Origin: an uncultured Centipeda sp.
GTDB taxonomy: Bacteria; Bacillota; Negativicutes; Selenomonadales; Selenomonadaceae
Reading direction: 5' to 3'
Assembly: GCA_937925565.1 (NCBI GenBank)
Contig: CALALM010000519.1
Location: forward strand, 1-10,321
Length of the DNA: 10,321 bases
Shown here: positions 1 to 10,321 of the stretch, one piece after another
Position numbering within the stretch: position 1 is the first letter of the stretch
How the letters are laid out: each line of letters begins with the position of its first letter
Made by a program: the position numbers and the translations under genes
The notes under the pieces: generated by a model
Told to the model about the DNA's origin: nothing
What the model saw: the letters and a program-made list of their open reading frames with translations, nothing else
Database searches by the model: none

Positions 1-1
1 C

Positions 2-1471
2 ATCGTCCTCGCGCTCTGGACGAAGGAAGTCTATATGTCGCTCATCATCGGCATCTTCTCGGGCGCCATGCTCTTCGCGGGCGGCAACTTTCTGCAGGCA
101 ACGCTCACGATGTTTCAGGTCATGGCGGACAAGGTTGGGAGCAACGTCAACATCCTAGTCTTTCTCGTCATCCTCGGCATCCTCGTCGCCGCCATCACGC
201 GCTCGGGTGCGATGAATGCCTACGGCGAGTGGGCAACACGCACGATCAAGGGGAAGCGCAGCGCCTCTCTCGTCACCGTGCTGCTCGGCATCGTCATCTT
301 CATCGACGACTACTTCAACTGCCTCACCGTCGGCACCGTCATGCGTCCCGTCACGGACAAGTTTCAGATCGCGCGCACAAAGCTCGCCTACATCATCGAC
401 GCGACGGCGGCACCGATCTGTATCATCGCCCCCGTTTCCAGCTGGGCGGCGGCAGTTGGCTCGTCCCTGCCGGAGGACGCGCCCATCGATGGCTTTATGC
501 TCTTCTTGCAGACAATTCCATTCAACCTTTACGCATGGCTCACGATTCTCTTTATGCTCTTCATCATTTGGACGGGACGCGACTTCGGCGCCATGCGAAA
601 GAGCGTTGAAAAATCCAACGCACATTTCGAGATCCCAAAGGAGTATCAGGACACGGCGGAGGCATCCGCGAGCGCGGCAAGCGAGGGACGCGGCAAGATG
701 ATCGACCTCATGCTCCCCCTTCTCGTCCTCATCGGCGCGTGCATCTACGGCATGCTCTATACGGGCGGCATTCATGAAGGCGCGAGCATTGCCGACGCCT
801 TCGCCAACTGCGATTCATCAAAGTCACTCGTCCTCGGTTCCTTCATCGCCTTCGTCTTTACGGGGCTCCTTTACCTGCCGCGCCGCGTTGTTTCGTTCAA
901 CGTGTTCTGCGACAGCTTTGGCTGGGGCTTCAAGGCGATGACCCCCGCCATCTTCATCCTCTGCCTCGCGTGGACGCTCTCGGGCATCTGCAGCAAGGAA
1001 TACCTCGACCTCGGCGGCTTTGTCGGCTCCGTCGTGCAGGCAAATGCGGGCGTCGTCATGTTCCTTCCGCCGCTCTTCTTCCTCGTCGCGGCAGGTCTTG
1101 CCTTCGCCACCGGCACGAGCTGGGGCACATTCGGCATCCTCATTCCGATCGCGATCGCTGTCCTCGGGCAGAGCGCACCGGACATCCTCGTCGTTTCCGT
1201 CGCTGCCATCCTCTCGGGCGCAGTCTGCGGTGACCATGCCTCGCCCATCTCCGACACCACCATCCTCGCCTCGGCGGGCGCACAGTGCCACCACCTCGAC
1301 CACGTATCGACACAGCTGCCCTACGTCGCCGTCGTCGCCTCCTGCTCCCTCCTCGGCTACATTGCCGACGGGCTCACAGGAAACGGCTACATCGGCCTCG
1401 GTATCGGCATCGTCGCCCTCGCACTCACGATGGCAGTCATCTCCACACGCATCAGTTCGGCGGAGAAGTAA
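2..1471 (+). CDS. NhaC-family Na+/H+ antiporter, 5'-truncated by window edge
   Basis: Multi-pass inner-membrane cation/proton antiporter of the NhaC type, predicted to expel Na+ (or exchange another small ion) against H+. The reading frame is open from base 2, and the residues before the first ATG at 35 (ending TKEVY) fit the family, so that ATG is internal and the real start lies left of the window. Recognisable conserved stretches are the acidic DDYFNCLTVGTVMRP segment at about residues 86-100 counted from the ATG at 35, IIDATAAPICIIAPVSSWAAA at about 119-139, a TGTSWGTFGILIPIAI segment at about 362-377, and a late SPISDTTILAS segment. Many hydrophobic helices run along its length, with one soluble charged loop at about residues 190-225. 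It ends at TAA, followed by a strong stem-loop. It is probably unrelated in function to the genes on the right. The family is a confident call; the transported ion is not determined by the sequence. Confidence 0.9.
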   Translation: MVLALWTKEVYMSLIIGIFSGAMLFAGGNFLQATLTMFQVMADKVGSNVNILVFLVILGILVAAITRSGAMNAYGEWATRTIKGKRSASLVTVLLGIVIFIDDYFNCLTVGTVMRPVTDKFQIARTKLAYIIDATAAPICIIAPVSSWAAAVGSSLPEDAPIDGFMLFLQTIPFNLYAWLTILFMLFIIWTGRDFGAMRKSVEKSNAHFEIPKEYQDTAEASASAASEGRGKMIDLMLPLLVLIGACIYGMLYTGGIHEGASIADAFANCDSSKSLVLGSFIAFVFTGLLYLPRRVVSFNVFCDSFGWGFKAMTPAIFILCLAWTLSGICSKEYLDLGGFVGSVVQANAGVVMFLPPLFFLVAAGLAFATGTSWGTFGILIPIAIAVLGQSAPDILVVSVAAILSGAVCGDHASPISDTTILASAGAQCHHLDHVSTQLPYVAVVASCSLLGYIADGLTGNGYIGLGIGIVALALTMAVISTRISSAEK

Positions 1472-1479
1472 AAGAATCA

Positions 1480-1562
1480 CGGATAAATTCGGCACACAAA
1501 AATGCCGCCAATGAGGCACATCTCCTCATCGGCGGCATTTTAAGTATCTCTGAATTTATCCG
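1480..1562. terminator. Nested bidirectional terminator between convergent genes
   Basis: The core is an 18-bp stem with one A/C mismatch (arms 1499-1516 and 1524-1541) around a 7-nt loop. The stem starts with AAAA and ends with TTTT, so each strand reads a GC-rich hairpin running into a short T tract. Outside it lies a perfect 11-bp inverted repeat (1480-1490 with 1552-1562, CGGATAAATTC), so the whole element could form a two-tier structure. The antiporter stops just left of it. The minus-strand membrane protein has its stop codon inside the outer right arm (1556-1558). This placement suits a terminator shared by both convergent transcripts. Confidence 0.85.
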
Positions 1563-2257
1563 CTTTTCCTAAACCTGAACAGAGTCCCAAGAGATGCCTG
1601 CGCAATCCGTCTGTCTATGATGTGTGCCAAGAGACCGGCAACCTGCGTCGCAATGAAATTGATCACGGCGAGGAGAACTATCATACAGTTGAGTCCCAAG
1701 AAAGAAAGCAGCGTGATCGGTCCCAGAACGATAAAATAAACGACGGTCAGCACCTTTACCAAAAACACGCCAAGAATGGTACTTACAATACCGCGTCGGA
1801 CAAGGCGGATATTGCGCGTATGCTGATGCAGGAAGGTTTTGATCCGCCTTGATATCTCACCCGGAGAACGAATCTCTGCCCACAGCTTTTTCAGCGCAGC
1901 CCACTTCCTACGTATGAGTTCGCATAACCGCCCGTTTAGATTTCGGTATACCTCGGAGACGGAGGAAAGACGACCGAGTTCATATCCCCATCCTCTGAGA
2001 TCAATCATACTCCCCAGACTGCTCTTCAGCGTCCCAAAAAAAGATACGAAATGGATTTTCCGCAAGAACTGCCAGATTGCCTGCGGAGATAAATCCGGCA
2101 TCGGCACTGACATGATGACCTTAATCAGACCAACGCATATTCTCAGGATCACACTGATCACTTGCAGAAGAATCCAGAGTCCCAACGATGCGGCATACAC
2201 TTTCGGCTTCCGCTGCATGCCGTTCTTCCTGCGCCTCAGTCGTTCCATCAATGTCAT
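1556..2257 (-). CDS. Unrecognised membrane protein with three hydrophobic segments
   Basis: 233 residues; I do not recognise the family. There is a very basic N-terminus (residues 5-20, RLRRRKNGMQRKPK). A long hydrophobic stretch at about 21-50 is followed by a soluble, basic, probably helical middle (about 55-155). Two hydrophobic segments follow at about 157-182 and 183-212, and the tail is basic. The first ATG is preceded by GGGGGAGG about 12 nt upstream, slightly long but better placed than for the ATG three codons in. It is the last gene of the minus-strand group, starting 27 bp after the HTH gene stop, so it is likely cotranscribed. GC content looks lower than in the helicase gene upstream, which hints at a separate origin. 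Possible roles are a membrane effector or a membrane anchor for its neighbours; that is inference only. Confidence 0.7.
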   Translation of the reverse strand: MTLMERLRRRKNGMQRKPKVYAASLGLWILLQVISVILRICVGLIKVIMSVPMPDLSPQAIWQFLRKIHFVSFFGTLKSSLGSMIDLRGWGYELGRLSSVSEVYRNLNGRLCELIRRKWAALKKLWAEIRSPGEISRRIKTFLHQHTRNIRLVRRGIVSTILGVFLVKVLTVVYFIVLGPITLLSFLGLNCMIVLLAVINFIATQVAGLLAHIIDRRIAQASLGTLFRFRKSG

Positions 2258-2284
2258 TTACGTACAGCACCTCCCCCGTATTCC

Positions 2285-2812
2285 CTAAACCTCACTTACA
2301 CTCCCCCTGCGGTTCGTGAGCGGCTTATGCCCATAGTGATCCAAATAGACATTCACTTGATCGACATTGTATTTGCGATGCACAATAAAGAACTCAACGA
2401 TAAGGTCACTCTCGCTGCTGTGCGAGAGTGTATAGCCCGCACGCCGCAGAAGATCCTGCGCATCATCGAGCGAGAGATGTAGCGCAATCGCAAAGGCGAG
2501 CGCCGTCTCCTTCGTCGGATGATAGTTCTTGTCCGTCCGAATCTTGGAGAAATGCGCTTTCGTCACGCCCGCCTTCGTATAGATCTCGGAGGGCTTGCGC
2601 CCTGTGCGCTCAATCAGATAGAGAAGATGCTCCGAGAAGGAATCCTCCATCTTTTTGAGCAGACCATTGATCGCCCCCAAAAGATCAATGGATGACGTGC
2701 GCGGTCCTGCAAATGTACGCAGATCATCTACGTGCAGCCGGCGAACCTCTCGCTCCGCTTCGTAATGCGCATCGATATATGCCGCAATTGCGGCAAGAAG
2801 ACGCTCATCCAT
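2285..2812 (-). CDS. Helix-turn-helix (XRE-like) protein with conserved C-terminal extension
   Basis: 175 residues from the chosen start. Residues 1-55 form a charged helical lead. Residues 58-125 resemble a compact HTH domain: SFSEHLLYLIERTG, then SEIYTKAGVTKAHFSKIR as the helix-turn-helix core, then ALAFAIALHLSLDDAQDLLRRAGY. After this comes SHSSESDLIVEFFI and a short helical tail. From memory, this pattern (HTH core, RAGY-LSHSS, then a (D)-(L/I)-I-(V/I)-E-(F/Y)-FI segment) recurs in a family of small Firmicute proteins found beside diverse accessory genes; their target is unknown to me. The frame stays open up to an ATG at 2878, but I prefer the ATG at 2812. It overlaps the helicase stop by only 8 nt (ATGGATGA) and has a GGAG 10 nt upstream, whereas 2878 would overlap the helicase by 74 nt. 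It may be an autoregulator of the group or an RNA/DNA-binding partner. Confidence 0.8.
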   Translation of the reverse strand: MDERLLAAIAAYIDAHYEAEREVRRLHVDDLRTFAGPRTSSIDLLGAINGLLKKMEDSFSEHLLYLIERTGRKPSEIYTKAGVTKAHFSKIRTDKNYHPTKETALAFAIALHLSLDDAQDLLRRAGYTLSHSSESDLIVEFFIVHRKYNVDQVNVYLDHYGHKPLTNRRGSVSEV

Positions 2813-2826
2813 TCGCTCTGCACTCC
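2805..2826 (-). promoter_or_regulatory. Stop-start overlap and internal ribosome binding site for HTH gene
   Basis: On the minus strand the helicase ends in the overlap ATGGATGA: the ATG at 2812-2810 starts the HTH protein, and the TGA at 2807-2805 stops the helicase. A GGAG inside the helicase's last codons lies 10 nt before that ATG. This arrangement favours translational coupling, with terminating ribosomes re-initiating on the HTH frame, and it decides the HTH start. Confidence 0.65.
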
Positions 2827-4547
2827 ATTCCGAGCCAGCTCGCAATCCCCTGTGGGGTGGGTGCGACCTCCTCGCCAAGCTGCACCGTCAGCGCAGGATA
2901 TTCCTCCGACGAAACATCATTGAGGAAGAGCGTTTCAAGATATGCGGTCGCCCTTGAGCTTCCCACGTAGATGAGGCGTTGACAAGTCGAATCGGTGAGC
3001 CTAGATACGCGCACATCCACGAGCAGCACCGCCTTCGCCTCAAGCCCCTTGTAGCGGCGCACCGTCGTGAGCCAGAGTTTCCCCTCCTCCGGCTTGTGCG
3101 AAATGGGAATCCCCGCGAGCTCGGTCAGAGAACCGAGCACAGATTTTACGAGCGTCGATACCGTGAGGATCACAATATCCCTCAGTTCCAATCTCTCCGC
3201 GCTGCGCATACGGCGCACAAAGTCAGCCGCCGCCTGTGCAAGCGCCTCCGTTTGGGAGACGAATACTGCACACGGGCGCTTGCCGTGAACATCGCTCAGG
3301 TAGTTCTTGTGTCTGCGCTCGATGAAGCTCCCCACCGTCCGCCCGATCTCCGCCGTATTGCGGCAGTTGCGGTAGAGCACGAGACGGCAGTCCATGTGTG
3401 CATCAATCCACGTCGGAGCCATCTGTAGAGTCTGCCCCTCAACGCGGCGGGAAAGAATCGTCTGCCCGCGGTCATAAAAGAGATAGAACGCCCCGTCATA
3501 AAGCTCGGCGAGCATCGCGAACTGTTCCAGAAGCGCACTCGGGAAATCCTGCGCCTCATCGACAATGATGTTGGGATATGCCCACTCCGTCCCATCGTAT
3601 TCGTTTTGGAAAAAATCCTCGAACTCCCGCAGCACCGTCTCAATGCGAAGCTCCCGCCCCGTCATCAGCTCCTCCGCAAGCGTGCGCTCGTTATGAATCA
3701 TGATGTTTGCGTCCCAACGACAGGAACGCAGACGCTCCAGCAGAAACTCATTGAAGCAGAGATAGAGCACCTTCTGCCCCTCGCGTGCAAGCATCCGCGC
3801 CTTCTCCGCCGCGAGCAGACTCTTGCCCGTGCCCGCCGCGCCGTGAATCGCCGCCGTGCGCTGATCGCGCAGATACTCCAGCAGCGCGAACTGCGCGTTC
3901 GTCAGACGCGCCGTTGACTGCTCCACCGCCGCCGACACGGCGGCGAGCGTCTCCACGATGCGGAACACAGGCTGCAGGATTTGAACGGTCTGCCGAAACT
4001 CCGCCGACGACTGCGTGCGCTCCGGAATGTGAAGAATTCCGCGCCAATACGCGTATATACGCTCCAACCTCTCCTTCGGGTCGCGCAGATCGTCCGCATC
4101 GAGGATGATGTCACGCGGCGACTCAAGCGGGAGCGGCTTCCCCTGCGGAATCTGAACCGACGTGAACCAGACCGCCTTGCCCACGAGCGGAACATTCTGC
4201 TGCATTCTCTTTTGCAGCTCCGCGAGAACCCGCTGACGACTCCTCTCCGCCTGCTGAAACGGGTAGATCACACGCGTCTCACCCATATTGCGGTTCGTCT
4301 GCCGCCACGCGCCGCCCTCGTAGGCAATCCCGCCCGCCTTCACCTCGATCGCGAGAATGCCGTGACGGGGGTGGAGGACGAGAAAGTCCGCCTCCCCCTG
4401 TGCCGCCGTCCGCACACCATCGCCAAGCCAGCAGTAGGAGTGAAACACCGTATAGTCATCCCCGAGCGTCTGGAGCGCATGATACGCCAGCCGCTCCCCC
4501 TCGCTCCCGTGAAAATCCCCTACGAATGCAGGATAGAATCGTGCCAT
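2805..4547 (-). CDS. NERD-domain nuclease fused to UvrD/Rep-like superfamily 1 helicase
   Basis: 580 residues, predicted to act on DNA (possibly RNA) in the cytoplasm. Residues 12-130 form a NERD (nuclease-related) domain: SEGE at 15-18, GEADF at 51-55, and EVKAG at 68-72. E16/E18, D54, E68 and K70 would be the metal-dependent nuclease site. The helicase part begins near 215, with Walker A GAAGTGKS at 236-243, Walker B IIVDEAQD at 327-334, a YDRGQ segment at 358-362 where a motif III glutamine sits, YRNCRNT at 392-398, RRYKGLEA at 497-504 (motif V) and RLIYVGSSRA at 524-533 (motif VI). All key residues are present, so it should be active. A near-ideal GGGGAGGA lies 5 nt before the ATG. Its stop overlaps the start of the HTH gene. 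NERD-helicases are thought to take part in DNA processing, and some fused nuclease-helicases act in phage defence. The fold call is firm and the role is inferred. Confidence 0.9.
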   Translation of the reverse strand: MARFYPAFVGDFHGSEGERLAYHALQTLGDDYTVFHSYCWLGDGVRTAAQGEADFLVLHPRHGILAIEVKAGGIAYEGGAWRQTNRNMGETRVIYPFQQAERSRQRVLAELQKRMQQNVPLVGKAVWFTSVQIPQGKPLPLESPRDIILDADDLRDPKERLERIYAYWRGILHIPERTQSSAEFRQTVQILQPVFRIVETLAAVSAAVEQSTARLTNAQFALLEYLRDQRTAAIHGAAGTGKSLLAAEKARMLAREGQKVLYLCFNEFLLERLRSCRWDANIMIHNERTLAEELMTGRELRIETVLREFEDFFQNEYDGTEWAYPNIIVDEAQDFPSALLEQFAMLAELYDGAFYLFYDRGQTILSRRVEGQTLQMAPTWIDAHMDCRLVLYRNCRNTAEIGRTVGSFIERRHKNYLSDVHGKRPCAVFVSQTEALAQAAADFVRRMRSAERLELRDIVILTVSTLVKSVLGSLTELAGIPISHKPEEGKLWLTTVRRYKGLEAKAVLLVDVRVSRLTDSTCQRLIYVGSSRATAYLETLFLNDVSSEEYPALTVQLGEEVAPTPQGIASWLGMECRANG

Positions 4548-4552
4548 GGGTG

Positions 4553-4621
4553 TCCTCCCCTATTGTCAAATAATAAGACCTCCGATATGTATATAATACA
4601 CCATTTCAGAGGTATTTGCAG
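4553..4621 (-). promoter_or_regulatory. Candidate promoter with inverted repeats upstream of nuclease-helicase
   Basis: On the minus strand a CTGCAA (plus-strand 4616-4621, 3 of 6 matches to the -35 consensus) stands 17 bp before TATTAT (4593-4598, 5 of 6 matches to the -10), about 30 nt before the GGGGAGGA ribosome binding site at 4553-4560. The -10 sits in a palindrome TGTAT-ATA-ATACA (4588-4600). It lies within a wider imperfect inverted repeat, ACCTCCGA at 4578-4585 and TCAGAGGT at 4606-4613. The repeats could be an operator, perhaps for the HTH protein encoded downstream. The weak -35 keeps this tentative. No clear terminator separates it from the small gene upstream. Confidence 0.4.
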
Positions 4622-4659
4622 CGTTATTGCAGAAATACATCCCCTATGCGGCGTTCTCT

Positions 4660-5109
4660 CTACACCATCGCTTTCGCTGGCTGCAATTCCTTCAACGTCT
4701 TATCCATAAACTGCGCAAGCTCATCAAGCACCTCTCGAATGTTCTGAACACATTTTGTCTGCACAGGCTGTTCACACACTAGATCTTCCTCTTCTCCCTC
4801 CTCCGCGAACTGCGCTTCCAGTTCCGCGATAATCTCCTCACCGCGCTCGGCAAGTTTCTCCTGCAAAGCACCGATGGATGTCTTGATTTTGGCATACACA
4901 GCATCGCGCTCCTCATCGCTCGTGCATTCCTCCATCGCCCACTCCGCCTCGCGGCGCAGCTTCTCGGCAAGGACGGCGATACCATCCACGTCGCGCAGTC
5001 CCTCAGAGCTGCATTCTGCACCATCATCGTCCGCCTCAATCACCGCAGCCACACAGAGTCCGATGATGCCGCCCGTCGCGAGCAGCAGACCGTTTTTTAC
5101 CCATGACAT
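4660..5109 (-). CDS. Small acidic membrane-anchored coiled-coil protein, unknown function
   Basis: 149 residues; I do not recognise the family. One hydrophobic segment at about 6-24 (GLLLATGGIIGLCVAAVI) follows a short MSWVKN lead, so it is probably a single-pass anchor rather than a cleaved signal. The rest is strongly acidic and helical, with likely coiled coil at about 45-105 ending in an EEGEEEDL cluster at 103-110. Three cysteines (33, 62 and 112) plus C120 lie in the soluble part. A very strong AAAGGAGGAG is placed 6 nt before the ATG. It is transcribed divergently from the dynamin operon and lies 112 bp upstream of the nuclease-helicase on the same strand. It could be expressed with either set. 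The anchor-plus-coil design resembles YtxH-like envelope stress proteins in outline only; I would not assign it there. Confidence 0.75.
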   Translation of the reverse strand: MSWVKNGLLLATGGIIGLCVAAVIEADDDGAECSSEGLRDVDGIAVLAEKLRREAEWAMEECTSDEERDAVYAKIKTSIGALQEKLAERGEEIIAELEAQFAEEGEEEDLVCEQPVQTKCVQNIREVLDELAQFMDKTLKELQPAKAMV

Positions 5110-5169
5110 AGTAAACTCCTCCTTTAATCCTAAACAAAAACCACATTCAGTATAAATGATGAAAAGAGG

Positions 5170-5198
5170 GAAAAGGTCGCCTGCCAGGCAACCTTTTC
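5170..5198. promoter_or_regulatory. Symmetrical hairpin in the divergent intergenic region
   Basis: A 29-nt inverted repeat is centred at 5184: GAAAAGGT, one c/a mismatch, GCCT, loop GCC, AGGC, then ACCTTTTC. It sits between divergent genes, 61 bp upstream of the minus-strand start and about 55 bp before the plus-strand -35. On either strand it is followed by only a broken pyrimidine tract, so it is a poor intrinsic terminator in this position. It could be an operator palindrome or a 5' leader hairpin of the minus transcript. Confidence 0.5.
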
Positions 5199-5253
5199 AA
5201 TTTCTATCTATGCTAAAATACAAACGACCATCAAAGCCCAAATAATTTCTCTT

Positions 5254-5281
5254 TTGAAAACGACTCTAAAAATAGTATAAT
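5254..5281 (+). promoter_or_regulatory. Near-consensus promoter of the dynamin operon
   Basis: TTGAAA at 5254-5259 (5 of 6 consensus) and TATAAT at 5276-5281 (perfect) are separated by 16 bp. This predicts a start near 5288 and a leader of about 33 nt before the ATG at 5321, with AAAGGAG at 5305-5311 as ribosome binding site. It is the only strong promoter I see for the plus-strand operon, whose later genes follow with gaps of only 9-19 bp. Confidence 0.75.
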
Positions 5282-5320
5282 AGTCTCATAGATTTTCATA
5301 AACTAAAGGAGCAAACAGAC

Positions 5321-6955
5321 ATGGAACACACAAAACGCTTTGAAGATTGCCGCCATGATATGCAGACCATCCTTACAATGGAGGAAAAATACGGGATTGC
5401 AGAGGAGAGCTTCCGTACGGCACTTGCCACCCTCGACCAGTTCTACGTCATTACGCCCATCGTCGGCAAGTTCAGTACGGGCAAGAGTTCTCTGATCAAC
5501 GCCCTGCTCGGCAAGAACTACCTGCGTATACAGATTACCCCCGAAACCGCCATCCCGACCGAACTGCGCTGGGGCAGCTCAGAGCGCGTCATCCTCCACC
5601 GCAAGAACGGCGCACAGGACGAAATCTCGCTTGAGGCATTCATGGACACAGACTATCGTGTTGAGGACATGCACAGTATCGAACTCATCCTCAATAATCC
5701 CGCGCTGAAAGCCATCTCCACGGTCAAAATCGTCGATATGCCCGGCTTCGACTCCGGCATTGAGATGCACAACCGCGCCATCGACGAATACATCTCTAAG
5801 AGCCATGCTTACATCATCGCCTTTGATGCTTCCGAGCCACTCATCGCTGAGAGCATTGTACGCTTCCTGCAGGAGCTGAAGCTTCACGATATGCCCGTCT
5901 ACCTCGTTATCACGAAGGCGGACAAGGTCACGGAGGAACAGCTCGCAGAAACAAAAGAGCGGATTCGTAGTGACGCGGCACAGTATCTCGGATTGACGGA
6001 CATTGCACTCGTCACAACGAATGCAAAAAAGAACACGGATATCACCGAATTCTCCGCCATCCTTGAGAAAATTGAGTCTGAGAGCCAGACCATCTTCGAG
6101 AAAAACACACGCGCTCGCATCCGAAGCGAAGCCACCCGCACGGAGCAATATCTGACCGCCTCCATCAAGAAGGCAGACCTCTCTCCCGATGAACTTGCCG
6201 CAGAGGAGGAGAAATGCCGCCGTGAACTCGAACGCATGAAGGAGGGCATCGAAAAGGAAAAAACAGCCTTCGTACGCCAGATTGACGAGAGCAGTGTAAA
6301 CATCGGTCGCCGTGTCGAAGCCGCACTCTCCGGTGCGGCGAGTGACCTCGAACGCATGGTGCTGAACAACGCCGATATCTCTGCAAAAGTCAACGCTATT
6401 GTGCGGCAAGCGGCACTTGAGGGACTAAAGGAGGACTTCGAGCCGCGCCTACACCGCTATCTGCACAAACTGACATCGGTCATACAGGTCAACGTCTCTG
6501 CGCAGCTGTCGGATCTAGACATCCAGAAGATTGATACCGATACGGCGACAAAGGAAATCGCAAAACAAGTTCTCCCTCTTATTCTCCTAATTATCGGGCG
6601 CACAGGAGGTCCTGTCGTCATCCTCATCCAAAAGGTGTTGGAGGAAATTATCTCCTTCTTCTCTCGCAAAAAAGTCCAGGAAGAGCGTCGCCAAAAAGTA
6701 CATGAACAGTTGCACGATGTTATCATCCCACAGATTGTAACGGAGACAGAAGGCGTGATTCGCGATGGTCTGACTCAGCAAGTCAGTGATATCAACCAGA
6801 TGATTGAGGACGAAGCAAAGGGGCAGATCGCCGTGCAGGAAAAAGCACTTGCGGATCTCCGCGAGAGTCGCGAAAAGGCAGCCGCCGAGCGCGAGACACG
6901 CCTTACCGAGATGCGCACCGATCTCGATGCCGTACAGAAACTGCTGACTGCATGA
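5321..6955 (+). CDS. Dynamin-like GTPase 1 with hydrophobic membrane-type segment
   Basis: 544-residue bacterial dynamin-family GTPase, expected to bind GTP, assemble on membranes and remodel or protect them. The G domain is complete: P-loop GKFSTGKSS at 49-57, switch threonines in TPETAIPTE (73-81), G3 DMPG at 139-142, G4 TKAD at 198-201. Long charged helices follow (about 285-320 and 450-540), as in a dynamin stalk. A hydrophobic stretch at about 416-440 (VLPLILLIIG, then PVVILIQKVL) could form a membrane-inserting paddle or hairpin. It is the first gene of the operon, directly behind a near-consensus promoter, with AAAGGAG 9 nt before the ATG. The next gene starts 10 bp after its stop. Bacterial dynamins are often encoded in pairs that form mixed complexes (for example Campylobacter DLP1/DLP2), and GTPase 2 downstream would be the partner. 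The family is firm; the cellular role is inferred. Confidence 0.92.
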   Translation: MEHTKRFEDCRHDMQTILTMEEKYGIAEESFRTALATLDQFYVITPIVGKFSTGKSSLINALLGKNYLRIQITPETAIPTELRWGSSERVILHRKNGAQDEISLEAFMDTDYRVEDMHSIELILNNPALKAISTVKIVDMPGFDSGIEMHNRAIDEYISKSHAYIIAFDASEPLIAESIVRFLQELKLHDMPVYLVITKADKVTEEQLAETKERIRSDAAQYLGLTDIALVTTNAKKNTDITEFSAILEKIESESQTIFEKNTRARIRSEATRTEQYLTASIKKADLSPDELAAEEEKCRRELERMKEGIEKEKTAFVRQIDESSVNIGRRVEAALSGAASDLERMVLNNADISAKVNAIVRQAALEGLKEDFEPRLHRYLHKLTSVIQVNVSAQLSDLDIQKIDTDTATKEIAKQVLPLILLIIGRTGGPVVILIQKVLEEIISFFSRKKVQEERRQKVHEQLHDVIIPQIVTETEGVIRDGLTQQVSDINQMIEDEAKGQIAVQEKALADLRESREKAAAERETRLTEMRTDLDAVQKLLTA

Positions 6956-6965
6956 GGAAAAAGAA

Positions 6966-8303
6966 ATGAGCACACAGACAATGAGCGAGCAAATTGCCCT
7001 GCTCAAAAATATTATCGCAAACCTGCGCGGACAGGTGGAGGAAGCAGATGCGACACTTGAGCGCATCCGTACGGCATTGGAGGAGGAAAGCGGCGCGGCA
7101 AAGCAGGAAACGGACTTCACCCGCCTCCGCTACGAGAGTGGAAAGCATCCCTATACAGGGCATCCCGCCGCACGCAGCTCCATGCCCGAGCTGTACTATT
7201 TGCTTCTCCTCACCGTCCTCACCTCTGCCGAGGCGACGGAGGCGCAGTGGATGCACCTCTATCGCGTCGCGGCAGGGGCGGGATATGAGCAGGATGTGCG
7301 CGACCTCCTGCCCGCCGCGCATGCCATCACGGACGCGAAAATCATCGAGTGTGTGGAGAGTCTGCATCGTGATAACCTCGTCAATGCCTTCCTGCTTGAC
7401 GCTATGCTGCTCGCACTCTTGCGCGAAGAGTCTGCGGCTATACTTGAATATATTGCAGAGCTATTTGCGTTAATCGGCGCACCACGCGAGGCGGTCAATG
7501 AAACTATACAGGCGGCAAAAATCATCATAGCACAAGACCGTGAAGCGTATCTTGCAGCAATGAGAGAAGCGATACATCTCCGTGCTCGAGAAAGCTACTT
7601 TTATTTGTATTCCCCAAATAAGACAGCTGTCGTCAACGATCTCGTACAGATCGAATCCATAGCATCTGAACATTTGATTGTACTTTGCGTAGAAGCAAGT
7701 AATGCAACACTGAATTTAGATACATGGGAAGCGGACAAAATATCATTTCATGACTGCAATTTTGAAAATAGCACAATAAAAACCTCCCAAAAAGAAGTTG
7801 CTTTCACTGGATGCCATTTCTACGAAAAAAATGCCAATACAGGAAGCACCCATTTATTGGCAGGAAAAGCAAGCGTACTAACAAAGTGTACGTTCAAAAA
7901 TATAACTGCTAAAACTCGTGTACTCTCCTTATATAATGCAACAATAGAGCATTGTACATTCTCAGATTGTACTGTCTGTGATGCCTCGCTGCTCGATTTA
8001 GTCAGTAGCAACATGACAAGCTCAGAGTTTACGCGCTGCACCTGCAAGGACAAGGAACAGCTAATTTCTGTAAGGAAAACAAACATCATACGTTGCAATT
8101 TCTTAGCTTGTTATACCGAAGCCAGTGCATCAAAGGTATTTATTATTGCTGCTAATGAAGATTCTGCGATAAAGAATTGTCAATTTGACAAATGCTCAAC
8201 CAAAGGTTGGTATAATGATTCTAGACGTATAATTTGCCTATATCTATCAAACGCGAGCGATAACACCTTCCATAGTTGCTCATATTGGAAACCATATTAT
8301 TAA
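6966..8303 (+). CDS. Chimeric protein: coiled coil, conserved helical domain, C-terminal beta-helix
   Basis: 445 residues; I do not recognise the full architecture. Residues 7-45 begin with SEQIALLKNII and look like coiled coil. Residues 50-215 form an all-helical domain opening with RLRYESGKHPYTGHPAARSSMPE (split here: RLRYESGK, then HPYTGHPAARSSMPE). The part at 50-155 is about 75% identical to the protein at 9766. Its two helical halves (about 76-118 and 138-188) recall the TerB-type fold, but weakly. Residues 255-440 hold seven or eight repeats of the form hydrophobic-x-x-C-x-F about 19-28 residues apart (C264/F266, C283/F285, C308/F310, C330/F332, F355, C377/F379, C405/F407, F435), which fit a right-handed parallel beta-helix. 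GAGG lies 8 nt before the ATG; the ATG at 6981 is an alternative start. GC falls sharply in the beta-helix half. It sits between two dynamins, so it may be an adaptor or a ligand-sensing partner. Confidence 0.85.
   Translation: MSTQTMSEQIALLKNIIANLRGQVEEADATLERIRTALEEESGAAKQETDFTRLRYESGKHPYTGHPAARSSMPELYYLLLLTVLTSAEATEAQWMHLYRVAAGAGYEQDVRDLLPAAHAITDAKIIECVESLHRDNLVNAFLLDAMLLALLREESAAILEYIAELFALIGAPREAVNETIQAAKIIIAQDREAYLAAMREAIHLRARESYFYLYSPNKTAVVNDLVQIESIASEHLIVLCVEASNATLNLDTWEADKISFHDCNFENSTIKTSQKEVAFTGCHFYEKNANTGSTHLLAGKASVLTKCTFKNITAKTRVLSLYNATIEHCTFSDCTVCDASLLDLVSSNMTSSEFTRCTCKDKEQLISVRKTNIIRCNFLACYTEASASKVFIIAANEDSAIKNCQFDKCSTKGWYNDSRRIICLYLSNASDNTFHSCSYWKPYY
7113..7430 (+). repeat. Direct repeat copy A encoding the helical domain
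   Basis: This segment encodes residues 50-155 of the chimeric protein. It is matched by copy B at 9778-10095, about 2.66 kb downstream in the same orientation. I count 80 identical residues of 106. The DNA is also similar: for example both copies contain catccctata and cagtggatgcacctcta. The two copies lie in different protein contexts. Confidence 0.85.
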
Positions 8304-8322
8304 CCCCAAAAAGGAGATTACC

Positions 8323-9756
8323 ATGACCAACATCACACCCGAGGAGCAAATTTCCCTCCTCAAGAAAATCATCGACCCGAACCGCGATGAGCGGATTCTG
8401 CCCGCACGGCTTGAGGAACTTGAGAACACCATCAAGAAGCGTCTGCCCGAGGCACTTGAGAAGAATGCCCCGCCCGATTTCCCCGCGCTCTACTTCGATT
8501 TTTGCTACATCTATGACCGCTTCTATGATTTCCTGCTCTTTCGCCCGCTCATCGGCAAGACCATCGTCGCGCTTGGCGGCGGGTTCAGCAGCGGGAAGTC
8601 GAGCTTTCTCAACGCTCTGCTCGGCGGCGCACGCCTTTTGCCGACCGCCGTCACTCCCTCCACCTCCGTCCCCGCCTACGTTCTGAGCGGCACAGACGAG
8701 ACAGCACGCGGCATCAATATCTTTGGTGCGAGCGTCCCCATGCAGATTGCGGACGTTCGCACCCTCGCGCACGGATTCGGCGAGGATGAGGAATCTGAGG
8801 AAGCCCCGCTCGGACATCTCCTGCGCAGCGTGTTTATCGAGACACCGCTCCACGCCTATGCAGGGATTGCCTTCCTCGACACACCGGGCTACTCTAAGCC
8901 CGACAGTGCCGCCTACTCCGCACGCACGGATGCCGAGATTGCACGCAGTCAGCTGAACGCGAGCGACTATATCCTCTGGTTCGTCCCTGCCGATGCCGGC
9001 ATCATCAGCAACGACGATCTCGACTTTCTGAATGCCCTCGATAAGAACATTCCGAAGCTCATCATCATCACGAAGGCGGACAAAGTCCCCTCTGCGGACG
9101 ATCTCCACCGTATGACGGACGGTGTACACGCCGCACTCGACCAGAAGGGCATCCGTTACGAGGACGTTCTGACCTATTCGCGCCGCGCAGGTGCAGACTG
9201 CGACCGCGATGCTGTGGCGAGCTATCTCACACGCCTCGACACGGGCAAGCATGATGCGGACTTTGCCTATCAGTTCAAGAAACTCTTTACCGCCTGCAAA
9301 AACTACTATGACGAAGTCATTCACGAGGAAAAGCGCCGTCTTGTCGGACTGAACCGCGCCCTCACCCATGTCGGCGATGTGCCGGAGGTCGAGGATGGAC
9401 TTGCCTCCTTTGCCCGCGAGGTGCGGGAGAAGATACAGGAGCTGACGGAGACAAAGGAGGCACTCAAAGAGCTTCAGCTTGACTTCTTCACCGAGCTGAA
9501 AGGCGTTGCCGACGAAGTCGGGATTGCCCTGCCCGAGCCGAGCGAGATCGACCTCCTCGAGGATCGTCGCACAGATGCCGCCGCCGTTGTGCAAAACCTT
9601 CTCAAACAGCGCGGTCTGAGCATCGACGATGACATCCTGCACCACATGGAGCGCGAGTTCCGAAACGTCAGTGCCGAGATCAGCAAACTGCCGGGCGGCG
9701 CATCCTACAAGCAGGAACTTCTCGCCCATATGCAGCGCGAGCTTGCCCGTGCCTAG
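8323..9756 (+). CDS. Dynamin-like GTPase 2, no hydrophobic segment
   Basis: 477-residue dynamin-family GTPase. The N-terminus (residues 5-17, TPEEQISLLKKII) matches the start of the preceding protein. A helical lead (about 25-75) comes before the G domain: P-loop GGFSSGKSS at 86-94, switch threonines in TAVTPSTSVP (108-117), G3 DTPG at 186-189, G4 TKAD at 250-253. The C-terminal third (about 315-477) is charged and helical. No stretch is hydrophobic enough to insert in a membrane, unlike GTPase 1. AAGGAG lies 6 nt before the ATG, 19 bp after the previous stop. Its TAG stop overlaps the ribosome binding site of the next gene. The shorter, soluble form suggests it is the cytosolic partner in a GTPase pair, recruited through its N-terminus or through GTPase 1. 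The pairing is inference from gene order and family precedent. Confidence 0.92.
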   Translation: MTNITPEEQISLLKKIIDPNRDERILPARLEELENTIKKRLPEALEKNAPPDFPALYFDFCYIYDRFYDFLLFRPLIGKTIVALGGGFSSGKSSFLNALLGGARLLPTAVTPSTSVPAYVLSGTDETARGINIFGASVPMQIADVRTLAHGFGEDEESEEAPLGHLLRSVFIETPLHAYAGIAFLDTPGYSKPDSAAYSARTDAEIARSQLNASDYILWFVPADAGIISNDDLDFLNALDKNIPKLIIITKADKVPSADDLHRMTDGVHAALDQKGIRYEDVLTYSRRAGADCDRDAVASYLTRLDTGKHDADFAYQFKKLFTACKNYYDEVIHEEKRRLVGLNRALTHVGDVPEVEDGLASFAREVREKIQELTETKEALKELQLDFFTELKGVADEVGIALPEPSEIDLLEDRRTDAAAVVQNLLKQRGLSIDDDILHHMEREFRNVSAEISKLPGGASYKQELLAHMQRELARA

Positions 9757-9765
9757 GAGGAACAC
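9755..9765 (+). promoter_or_regulatory. Ribosome binding site overlapping the GTPase 2 stop
   Basis: AGGAGG at 9755-9760 begins inside the TAG stop codon (9754-9756) of GTPase 2 and lies 5 nt before the ATG at 9766. This fixes the start of the last gene and suggests that the two genes are translationally coupled. Confidence 0.7.
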
Positions 9766-10125
9766 ATGGAAAATTTGGACTTTGCGCGACTGCGTTACGA
9801 GGGAGAGAACCATCCCTATACGGGACACCCCGCCGCGCGCAGCACCATGCCTGAGAACTACTATCTGCTCCTCATGACCATCCTCACCACCGCCGAGGCA
9901 AAGGAAGCACAGTGGATGCACCTCTACCGCGTCGCAAAGGGCGCGGGCTATGCGCAGGATGTGCGAGAACTGCTGCCCGCCGCGCACGCGCTGACAGGAG
10001 AGAGGGTTGTCGAATGTGTCGAGAGCATCCGCCGCGATGACCTTACGAACGGCTTTCTGCTCGATTCCATGCTCCTCTACCTCCTGCGTGAGGAGGAAGA
10101 GCCGAAACTATCTCCTGCGCGATGA
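9766..10125 (+). CDS. Second helical-domain protein (paralogue), frame ends early
   Basis: The frame gives 119 residues from a well-supported ATG. Residues 5-110 repeat the helical domain of the protein at 6966, including DFARLRYE, HPYTGHPAARSTMPE and EAQWMHLYRV, at about 75% identity. The N-terminal coiled coil of the longer paralogue is missing: this protein starts almost directly at the domain. After LLYLLREEEE the frame runs through PKLSPAR into a TGA, while the expected continuation (YLLRDEENAK, then LLEYIAGL) is present one frame over. The gene therefore appears frameshifted, unless recoding or an assembly error is involved. If the short product is real, it lacks the second half of the domain's final helices. 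Function is unknown; gene order suggests it works with GTPase 2. Confidence 0.8.
   Translation: MENLDFARLRYEGENHPYTGHPAARSTMPENYYLLLMTILTTAEAKEAQWMHLYRVAKGAGYAQDVRELLPAAHALTGERVVECVESIRRDDLTNGFLLDSMLLYLLREEEEPKLSPAR
9778..10095 (+). repeat. Direct repeat copy B encoding the helical domain
   Basis: Partner of copy A at 7113-7430, with 80 of 106 encoded residues identical and the same orientation. The differences are mostly conservative (V/I, S/T, D/E, K/R), as expected of an old duplication under selection. The similarity continues past this segment in a shifted frame to the window edge. Confidence 0.85.
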
Positions 10126-10138
10126 GGAGAATGCAAAG
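10077..10138 (+). repeat. 31-bp imperfect tandem duplication causing a frameshift
   Basis: Unit 1 (10077-10107) and unit 2 (10108-10138) align at 22 of 31 bases. In unit 1 the annotated frame reads YLLREEEEPK. In unit 2 the frame one base over reads YLLRDEENAK. Because 31 is not a multiple of three, the second unit throws the rest of the gene into the other frame. Confidence 0.75.
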
Positions 10139-10321
10139 CTGCTTGAATATATTGCGGGACTGTGTGCACTGCTCGAAGTCGCGCCACCTGTTATCACGGA
10201 AACGATAGCTGTAGCAAAATGTATCATAGAGCAGGATCACACATATTTCTCGTTGATGGCAAAAACCACCATTCTCAAGGCAAGTGACAGTTATTTTTAT
10301 CTCTACCAGCCTGATGGAGAG
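10106..10321 (+). pseudogene. Out-of-frame continuation of the second helical-domain protein
   Basis: Open in the frame starting at 10106 to the window edge. It reads NYLLRDEENAK, then LLEYIAGLCALLEVAPPVIT, a CIIEQD segment, and SDSYFYLYQPDGE. This lines up with residues 151-219 of the protein at 6966 (LLREE, EYIAELFALIGAP, IIIAQD, ESYFYLYSP), so the downstream half of the gene still exists. There is no start with a ribosome binding site of its own. Whether a beta-helix follows, as in the paralogue, lies outside the window. The alternatives are a true pseudogene, a +1 recoded gene, or a sequencing/assembly error at a repeat. Confidence 0.75.

Follow-up and report, generated by a model that had tools for sequence, protein, structure and literature searches.

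The window analysed here is the whole stretch of 10,321 nucleotides from an uncultured Centipeda sp. (contig CALALM010000519.1, positions 1 to 10,321), which carries an operon encoding two dynamin-like GTPases (G1 and G2) and two H proteins with a TerB-like helical domain and a beta-helix (H1 and H2). The reading favoured here, tentatively and with a chance close to even, is that the left part of an accessory conflict system lies in this window. Such a system would be built from several dynamin GTPases and TerB-like/beta-helix adaptors, with the H proteins responding to a target that changes and setting off GTP-dependent action at the membrane. The gene content and order, the G2-H fusions found in relatives, the constant and variable parts of H and the insertion into a shared backbone are directly supported.

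The operon consists of four plus-strand reading frames in a single orientation: G1 (5321..6955, 544 aa), H1 (6966..8303, 445 aa), G2 (8323..9756, 477 aa) and the start of a second TerB/beta-helix gene, H2 (9766..10125), whose frame stops early, at 119 aa. The gaps G1-H1, H1-G2 and G2-H2 measure 10, 19 and 9 bp, and purine-rich Shine-Dalgarno-like stretches, judged by eye, precede the starts of H1, G2 and H2. Before G1, a promoter-like site on the plus strand (TTGAAA-16-TATAAT, 5254..5281, consensus match only) scores 11 out of 12 and is the best of the nine sites found in 4500-10321, compared with a mean of 4.3 in shuffled sequence. This confirms what a previous sequence-only reading of this DNA had described: a four-gene run in one direction, with short gaps and one promoter-like site.

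Both GTPases match Pfam Dynamin_N well above the cut-off of 27 bits (76.8 bits and 2.5e-21 for G1, 60.4 bits and 3e-16 for G2) and keep the P-loop, DxxG and TKAD nucleotide-binding motifs (GKFSTGKS, DMPG and TKAD in G1; GGFSSGKS, DTPG and TKAD in G2). G1 has a strongly hydrophobic segment (residues 418-436, nucleotides 6572-6628, plus strand), where the highest 19-residue mean reaches 2.12 at residue 418, whereas G2 has none (highest mean 1.38). The PDB chains 5owv_A and 5owv_C, which we take to be the Campylobacter Cj-DLP1/DLP2 pair, match G1 at 2e-9 and 1e-8. A named relative among the matches listed for G2, P0117, is 76% identical over 65% and points to Selenomonas as the probable host. Judging from their sequences, G1 and G2 are bacterial dynamin-like proteins, for which GTP-dependent membrane remodelling is predicted only. 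As a side observation, one contig (C1) of genome G047 presents ten Dynamin_N matches grouped in three clusters.

Association of H genes with dynamins

Scanning named genomes for matches to an alignment of G2 yielded at least 16 loci, and further searches added others. Finally, 22 loci were mapped, with L014-L016 excluded as weak Era-type matches and L048 standing for L005; two of the genomes, G002 and G020, are closely related to each other (97.6% over 4.9 kb). A G2-profile match was present in 20 of the 22 loci, and H lies directly after G2 in 16 of them; the contig ends in G2 in one, and three are without H. The G2-H adjacency extends over Negativicutes, Clostridia, Bacilli, Synergistaceae and one Photobacterium plasmid, so the conservation of gene order in distant groups that was to be checked was found for G2-H. 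Furthermore, H domains are fused to four of the 120 listed G2 homologues (the best 120 of 1027) and to none of the 120 listed G1 homologues (the best 120 of 285).

Regarding G1, it is located directly before G2 in all 12 mapped G1-G2 pair loci, one of which ends in G2 with its contig; wherever the sequence continues, an H gene follows G2. None of these 12 relatives carries H between G1 and G2, and only the window shows such an order. The proposal that each GTPase has its own adaptor is thus maintained for G2, with H behind it in 16 of 20 loci and the four listed fusions. For G1, the repeated GTPase-plus-own-adaptor module was rejected, because G1 directly precedes G2 in every pair locus and no fusion appears among its listed homologues.

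A third, different dynamin (G3) was found in 13 of the 16 G2-H loci, and the earlier label of a two-dynamin operon is therefore too narrow; G001 is a fourteenth genome, with G3 on another contig. Nine of the loci later counted had gone into the GTPase3 profile and six into the HerA profile, and the GTPase3 matches independent of the profile-building loci are those of G001, G020, G010, G066, G368, Photobacterium and the three loci lacking H. In G321 and G004b, G2-H stands alone in the stretch read, and for this reason G2-H looks like the smallest unit.

The association was also approached from the H side, independently of G2 as a query. Four of 189 Selenomonadaceae genomes contained the TerB-like part of H, and dynamin genes adjoin it in all four; the idea that the helical-domain genes occur mostly without dynamins was not borne out. 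Three further Selenomonadaceae genomes gave beta-helix-only matches, with no dynamin-profile match in the stretches read. Protein matches also suggest that more Selenomonas-type contigs carry G1 and H, in an order that is not visible. A full-text literature search, largely open-access and with subscription journals mostly outside it, gave no matching system for this combination among the records listed, so its novelty is considered provisional. The earlier statement that no such system was known agrees with this.

Constant and variable parts of the H proteins

The model of H1 comprises a coiled coil, a helical domain (7116..7604, plus strand, residues 51-213) and a right-handed beta-helix (7623..8273, plus strand, residues 220-436), the latter fold being recognized when the structure model was tested for it. 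The helical domain was modelled confidently, and its best structural matches belong to the TerB family, at a moderate level; the top one, 2ou3, is titled tellurite resistance protein. This domain had been called novel, a claim that was not sustained since its model best matches TerB-family structures, though moderately. At the sequence level, no Pfam TerB match was obtained for H1 at E up to 1, and TerB is not among the 25 families shown, out of 41, for 33 alignment members. The hydrophobicity scan of H1 revealed no strongly hydrophobic stretch fit for a signal or anchor (highest 19-residue mean 1.43).

The helical domain is mostly near-constant and the beta-helix is the variable part. The median identity over residues 50-150 in four H subtypes was 95% (36 pairs), 95% (28), 90% (3) and 95% (15), compared with 41, 43, 29 and 51% in the beta-helix of the same subtypes, bearing in mind that the protein database was clustered at 90%, which favours variable pairs but not the position of the variation. 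The change from constant to variable occurs near residue 195, with an earlier dip at about 166-180 in one subtype. Moreover, only I, F or C occupy the 13 invariant alignment columns beyond residue 255, which fits a helix core that is kept under a changing surface. We infer from the H sequences that a constant scaffold with a varying surface would suit a recognition role. Separately, beta-helix proteins at three loci (L060, L061 and L062) match the variable half of H alone, and their neighbours seem by eye partly alike across these loci.

The second H gene deserves a separate comment. The first 108 residues of H2, the piece that was searched, are identical to P0062, a protein of 426 aa. The continuation lies in another frame (10109..10321, plus strand), leaves the window at its end and shares 97% identity with P0060, 96% with P0061 and 75% with P0062. 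The gene changes both allele and frame around 10109 (about 10089-10125). From this comparison, it is a mosaic of two alleles, left by recombination or produced where the assembly was joined. Hence, the second helical-domain protein of the sequence-only reading does exist as a gene after G2, but its frame is broken in the window and not intact. Internal stops are also present in the H matches of G001 and G010.

Insertion site and extended loci

The left flank of the operon is shared with genomes of the same family. G043 matches window positions 1-4627 at 95.5% and 4659-5203 at 81%, G047 matches 1-1472 and 2299-5203, and G041 matches 4690-5203 only. In each of them the similarity ends at 5203, just past a terminator-like hairpin of 13 pairs (5170..5198, minus strand, consensus match only), and none gave a G1 match at 1e-40 in the search of the 189 Selenomonadaceae, but other dynamins are present. 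Taken together, the common end of similarity and the lack of G1 indicate that, at the sequence level, the operon is a strain-variable insertion in a shared chromosomal backbone; only its left edge (5203..5204) lies within the window.

The operon is rare and patchy in occurrence. G1 was detected in three of the 189 Selenomonadaceae genomes. In two classes, with 391 and 398 genomes, G2 was found in three and one respectively, the seed genome being counted in each. No relative turned up in viral sequences scanned with the H or the G2 alignment, in phage records searched for G1 at E up to 1e-5, or in genome contigs scanned with the H alignment.

Two backbone genes were considered as well. The upstream membrane-protein gene (4660-5109, minus strand) was rejected as part of the system because its homologues are found in 43 of 189 Selenomonadaceae genomes and it belongs to the backbone shared with genomes lacking G1; on the other hand, a homologue lies upstream of G1 in G002 and G020, with one gene between. 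Its product, a small protein that is widespread in Selenomonadaceae, has a single hydrophobic helix, and in L097 and L098 a homologue stands beside genes that by eye look like kinase, von Willebrand (TerY-like) and phosphatase genes. The region 2805-4547 encodes a NERD-helicase-like protein of the chromosomal backbone (PADLOC RTasNERD-Hel, 2e-58), also present in L093.

In some relatives the operon is longer. A gene for a HerA-type ATPase was found after G3 in seven of the 22 mapped loci: the ATPases of L006, L008, L009 and L011 match PF01935 (HerA central domain), that of L005 matches PADLOC HerA models, and those of L007 and L010 were recognized by a profile of our own. Nuclease genes are next to HerA in six of these seven loci, namely LHH in L005, L007 and L009, WHH/colicin-DNase in L010 and L011, and HNH in L008, where the match is just below the threshold (21.0 vs 21.4 bits); the corresponding gene of L006 has no significant family match. 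The toxin proteins of L005 and L011 are without a strongly hydrophobic stretch (highest 19-residue means 0.17 and -0.23). Immunity genes appear in five of the seven loci, of which all but L010 were covered (SUKH in L005, L007, L008 and L009; DUF6985 in L011), and the family search placed a WYL regulator upstream of G1 in L007 and L009. In L007, the half formed by H, G3, HerA, toxin and immunity genes is oriented opposite to G1-G2-H. The HerA of L008 has strong matches (E below 1e-140) in the seven extended genomes of 19 examined and weaker ones in G001, G002 and G041, each near other dynamin genes.

Other gene clusters were observed alongside these loci. G041, of the same family and with no G1 match, contains dynamin, HerA, LHH toxin, SUKH and WYL genes together (L125, 8220-15143), and L126 (5054-15276) groups a TerD-dynamin fusion, a HerA ATPase and genes that by eye look like TerD in one cluster. 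On an E. coli plasmid there is a diverged operon of three dynamins in the order G1-G3-G2, with G3 in two pieces (L035, 7027-15562); the plasmid also encodes an 829 aa protein annotated as CFI-box. G2 is matched by ten Escherichia plasmid records.

Possible function and comparison with known systems

For the operon proteins, we infer docking, recognition and membrane action as follows. G1, with its strongly hydrophobic segment, would be the membrane-inserting subunit, forming a hetero-oligomer with G2 that acts at the inner side of the membrane. The H proteins could dock on G2 through their constant TerB-like half, while the variable beta-helix surface could recognise a fast-changing target, for example a phage or competitor component. 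Target binding would then trigger GTP-dependent assembly on the membrane, and the attacked patch could be sealed or isolated. In relatives, where a third dynamin accompanies this core and a HerA-type ATPase, a nuclease toxin and an immunity protein are often added, the output might be killing. It is rather doubtful, as a bolder version, that these loci represent a new class of bacterial conflict machine, namely a membrane device of three dynamins. Its TerB-like adaptors would recognise targets through an interchangeable beta-helix of antibody-like constant/variable design, and the complete device would power a HerA-type motor deploying a nuclease toxin and its immunity protein across or at membranes.

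Several points weigh against the conflict reading. The TerB match is moderate, the beta-helix variation may have causes other than an arms race, and PADLOC gave no relevant match for H and only weak Leo matches for the GTPases. Most loci were gathered with a G2 query and do not form a random sample. The three loci without H, with the order G1-G3-G2 (Synergistales L013, the E. coli plasmid and a Moraxella plasmid), imply that three-dynamin sets can do without H. Diverged HerA genes are found elsewhere in G001 and G002, beside other dynamins, and together with the H-less loci they slightly lower the confidence in a conflict role. Moreover, no HerA or toxin genes were seen in the sequence read around the four Selenomonadaceae dynamin-H loci, so the killing output may not apply to the window.

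Other explanations were weighed against the same data. The HerA, nuclease and immunity genes after GTPase3 in relatives would also suit a machine for toxin or vesicle release, in which dynamins shape the membrane for export of a cargo toxin, the HerA-type ATPase acts as the pump and the variable beta-helix picks the target cells or the cargo. The dynamins of LeoABC reportedly promote the release of toxin in vesicles (excerpt of PMC4159319), and type VII toxin export is powered by an FtsK/HerA ATPase (excerpt of PMC3482391). However, H1 and the toxins of L005 and L011 are without a strongly hydrophobic signal- or anchor-like stretch, as judged by hydrophobicity means and not by a signal-peptide program, and core loci without HerA exist (G002, G003, G004, G020, G368 and Photobacterium). 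This explanation is considered unlikely.

A set for membrane-stress repair of the DynA or IniA kind, unrelated to conflict and with H sensing damage or metal through its TerB-like domain, is less probable still. It is in line with the title of 2ou3 and with the report that dynamins can support membrane integrity and that DynA delays lysis after phage infection (excerpt of PMC8844932), but the rare and patchy occurrence, the strain-variable insertion and the diversified beta-helix are ill-suited to housekeeping. Finally, since most bacterial dynamin genes are paired within operons (excerpt of PMC6104087) and three of the 20 mapped G2 loci are without H, this could be an ordinary dynamin pair with H genes as passengers among unrelated neighbours. 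That seems very improbable given the adjacency across distant groups, the G2-H gene fusions and the presence of the TerB-like part of H only beside dynamins in the 189 Selenomonadaceae.

If the conflict reading is true, bacterial dynamins would have dedicated adaptors, as eukaryotic dynamins do. Bacterial dynamins, whose natural jobs are mostly obscure, appear here tied to a diversifying partner and, in relatives, also to genes for toxins and immunity proteins. Through the variable half of H, it becomes directly testable what these dynamins act on.

Concerning known systems, LeoABC/Eleos also has dynamin-like proteins encoded together. G1 is weakly similar to PADLOC LeoA (4e-11, 40.6 bits) and LeoBC (2e-6, 25 bits), models with no curated cut-off, and the best LeoA stretch covers residues 47-76 only; Eleos is made up of LeoA and LeoBC. 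With NCBIfam LeoA, G2 scores 10.6 bits against a cut-off of 325, and G1 is not listed at E up to 1. In LeoABC, leoC and leoB precede leoA, conservation does not extend to the adjoining genes, and no TerB/beta-helix partner is mentioned in the same excerpt of PMC4159319; Eleos is termed a Dynamins-like defence system (excerpt of PMC11811056). Bacillus subtilis DynA resembles the operon in having dynamin GTPases that work in a pair, reportedly counteracting phage lysis (PMC8844932, same excerpt), but DynA joins two dynamins in one protein (PMC6104087, same excerpt), whereas G1 and G2 are separate genes scoring 36.9 and 36.3 bits with the DynA equivalog NCBIfam NF052648, against a cut-off of 1600. 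The Campylobacter Cj-DLP1/DLP2 genes are side by side and their products act as a hetero-oligomer, while the excerpt of PMC6104087 mentions no TerB/beta-helix adaptor gene for them.

The TerB/Ter stress proteins moderately resemble the H helical domain in its predicted fold, and TerD is fused to a dynamin near HerA in L126, but H1 differs from them in lacking a Pfam TerB sequence match. Polymorphic toxin systems share with the extended loci of relatives the LHH/WHH toxin and SUKH immunity families, while the trafficking modes described in the excerpt of PMC3482391 are those of other systems, and the word dynamin is absent from its text as searched.

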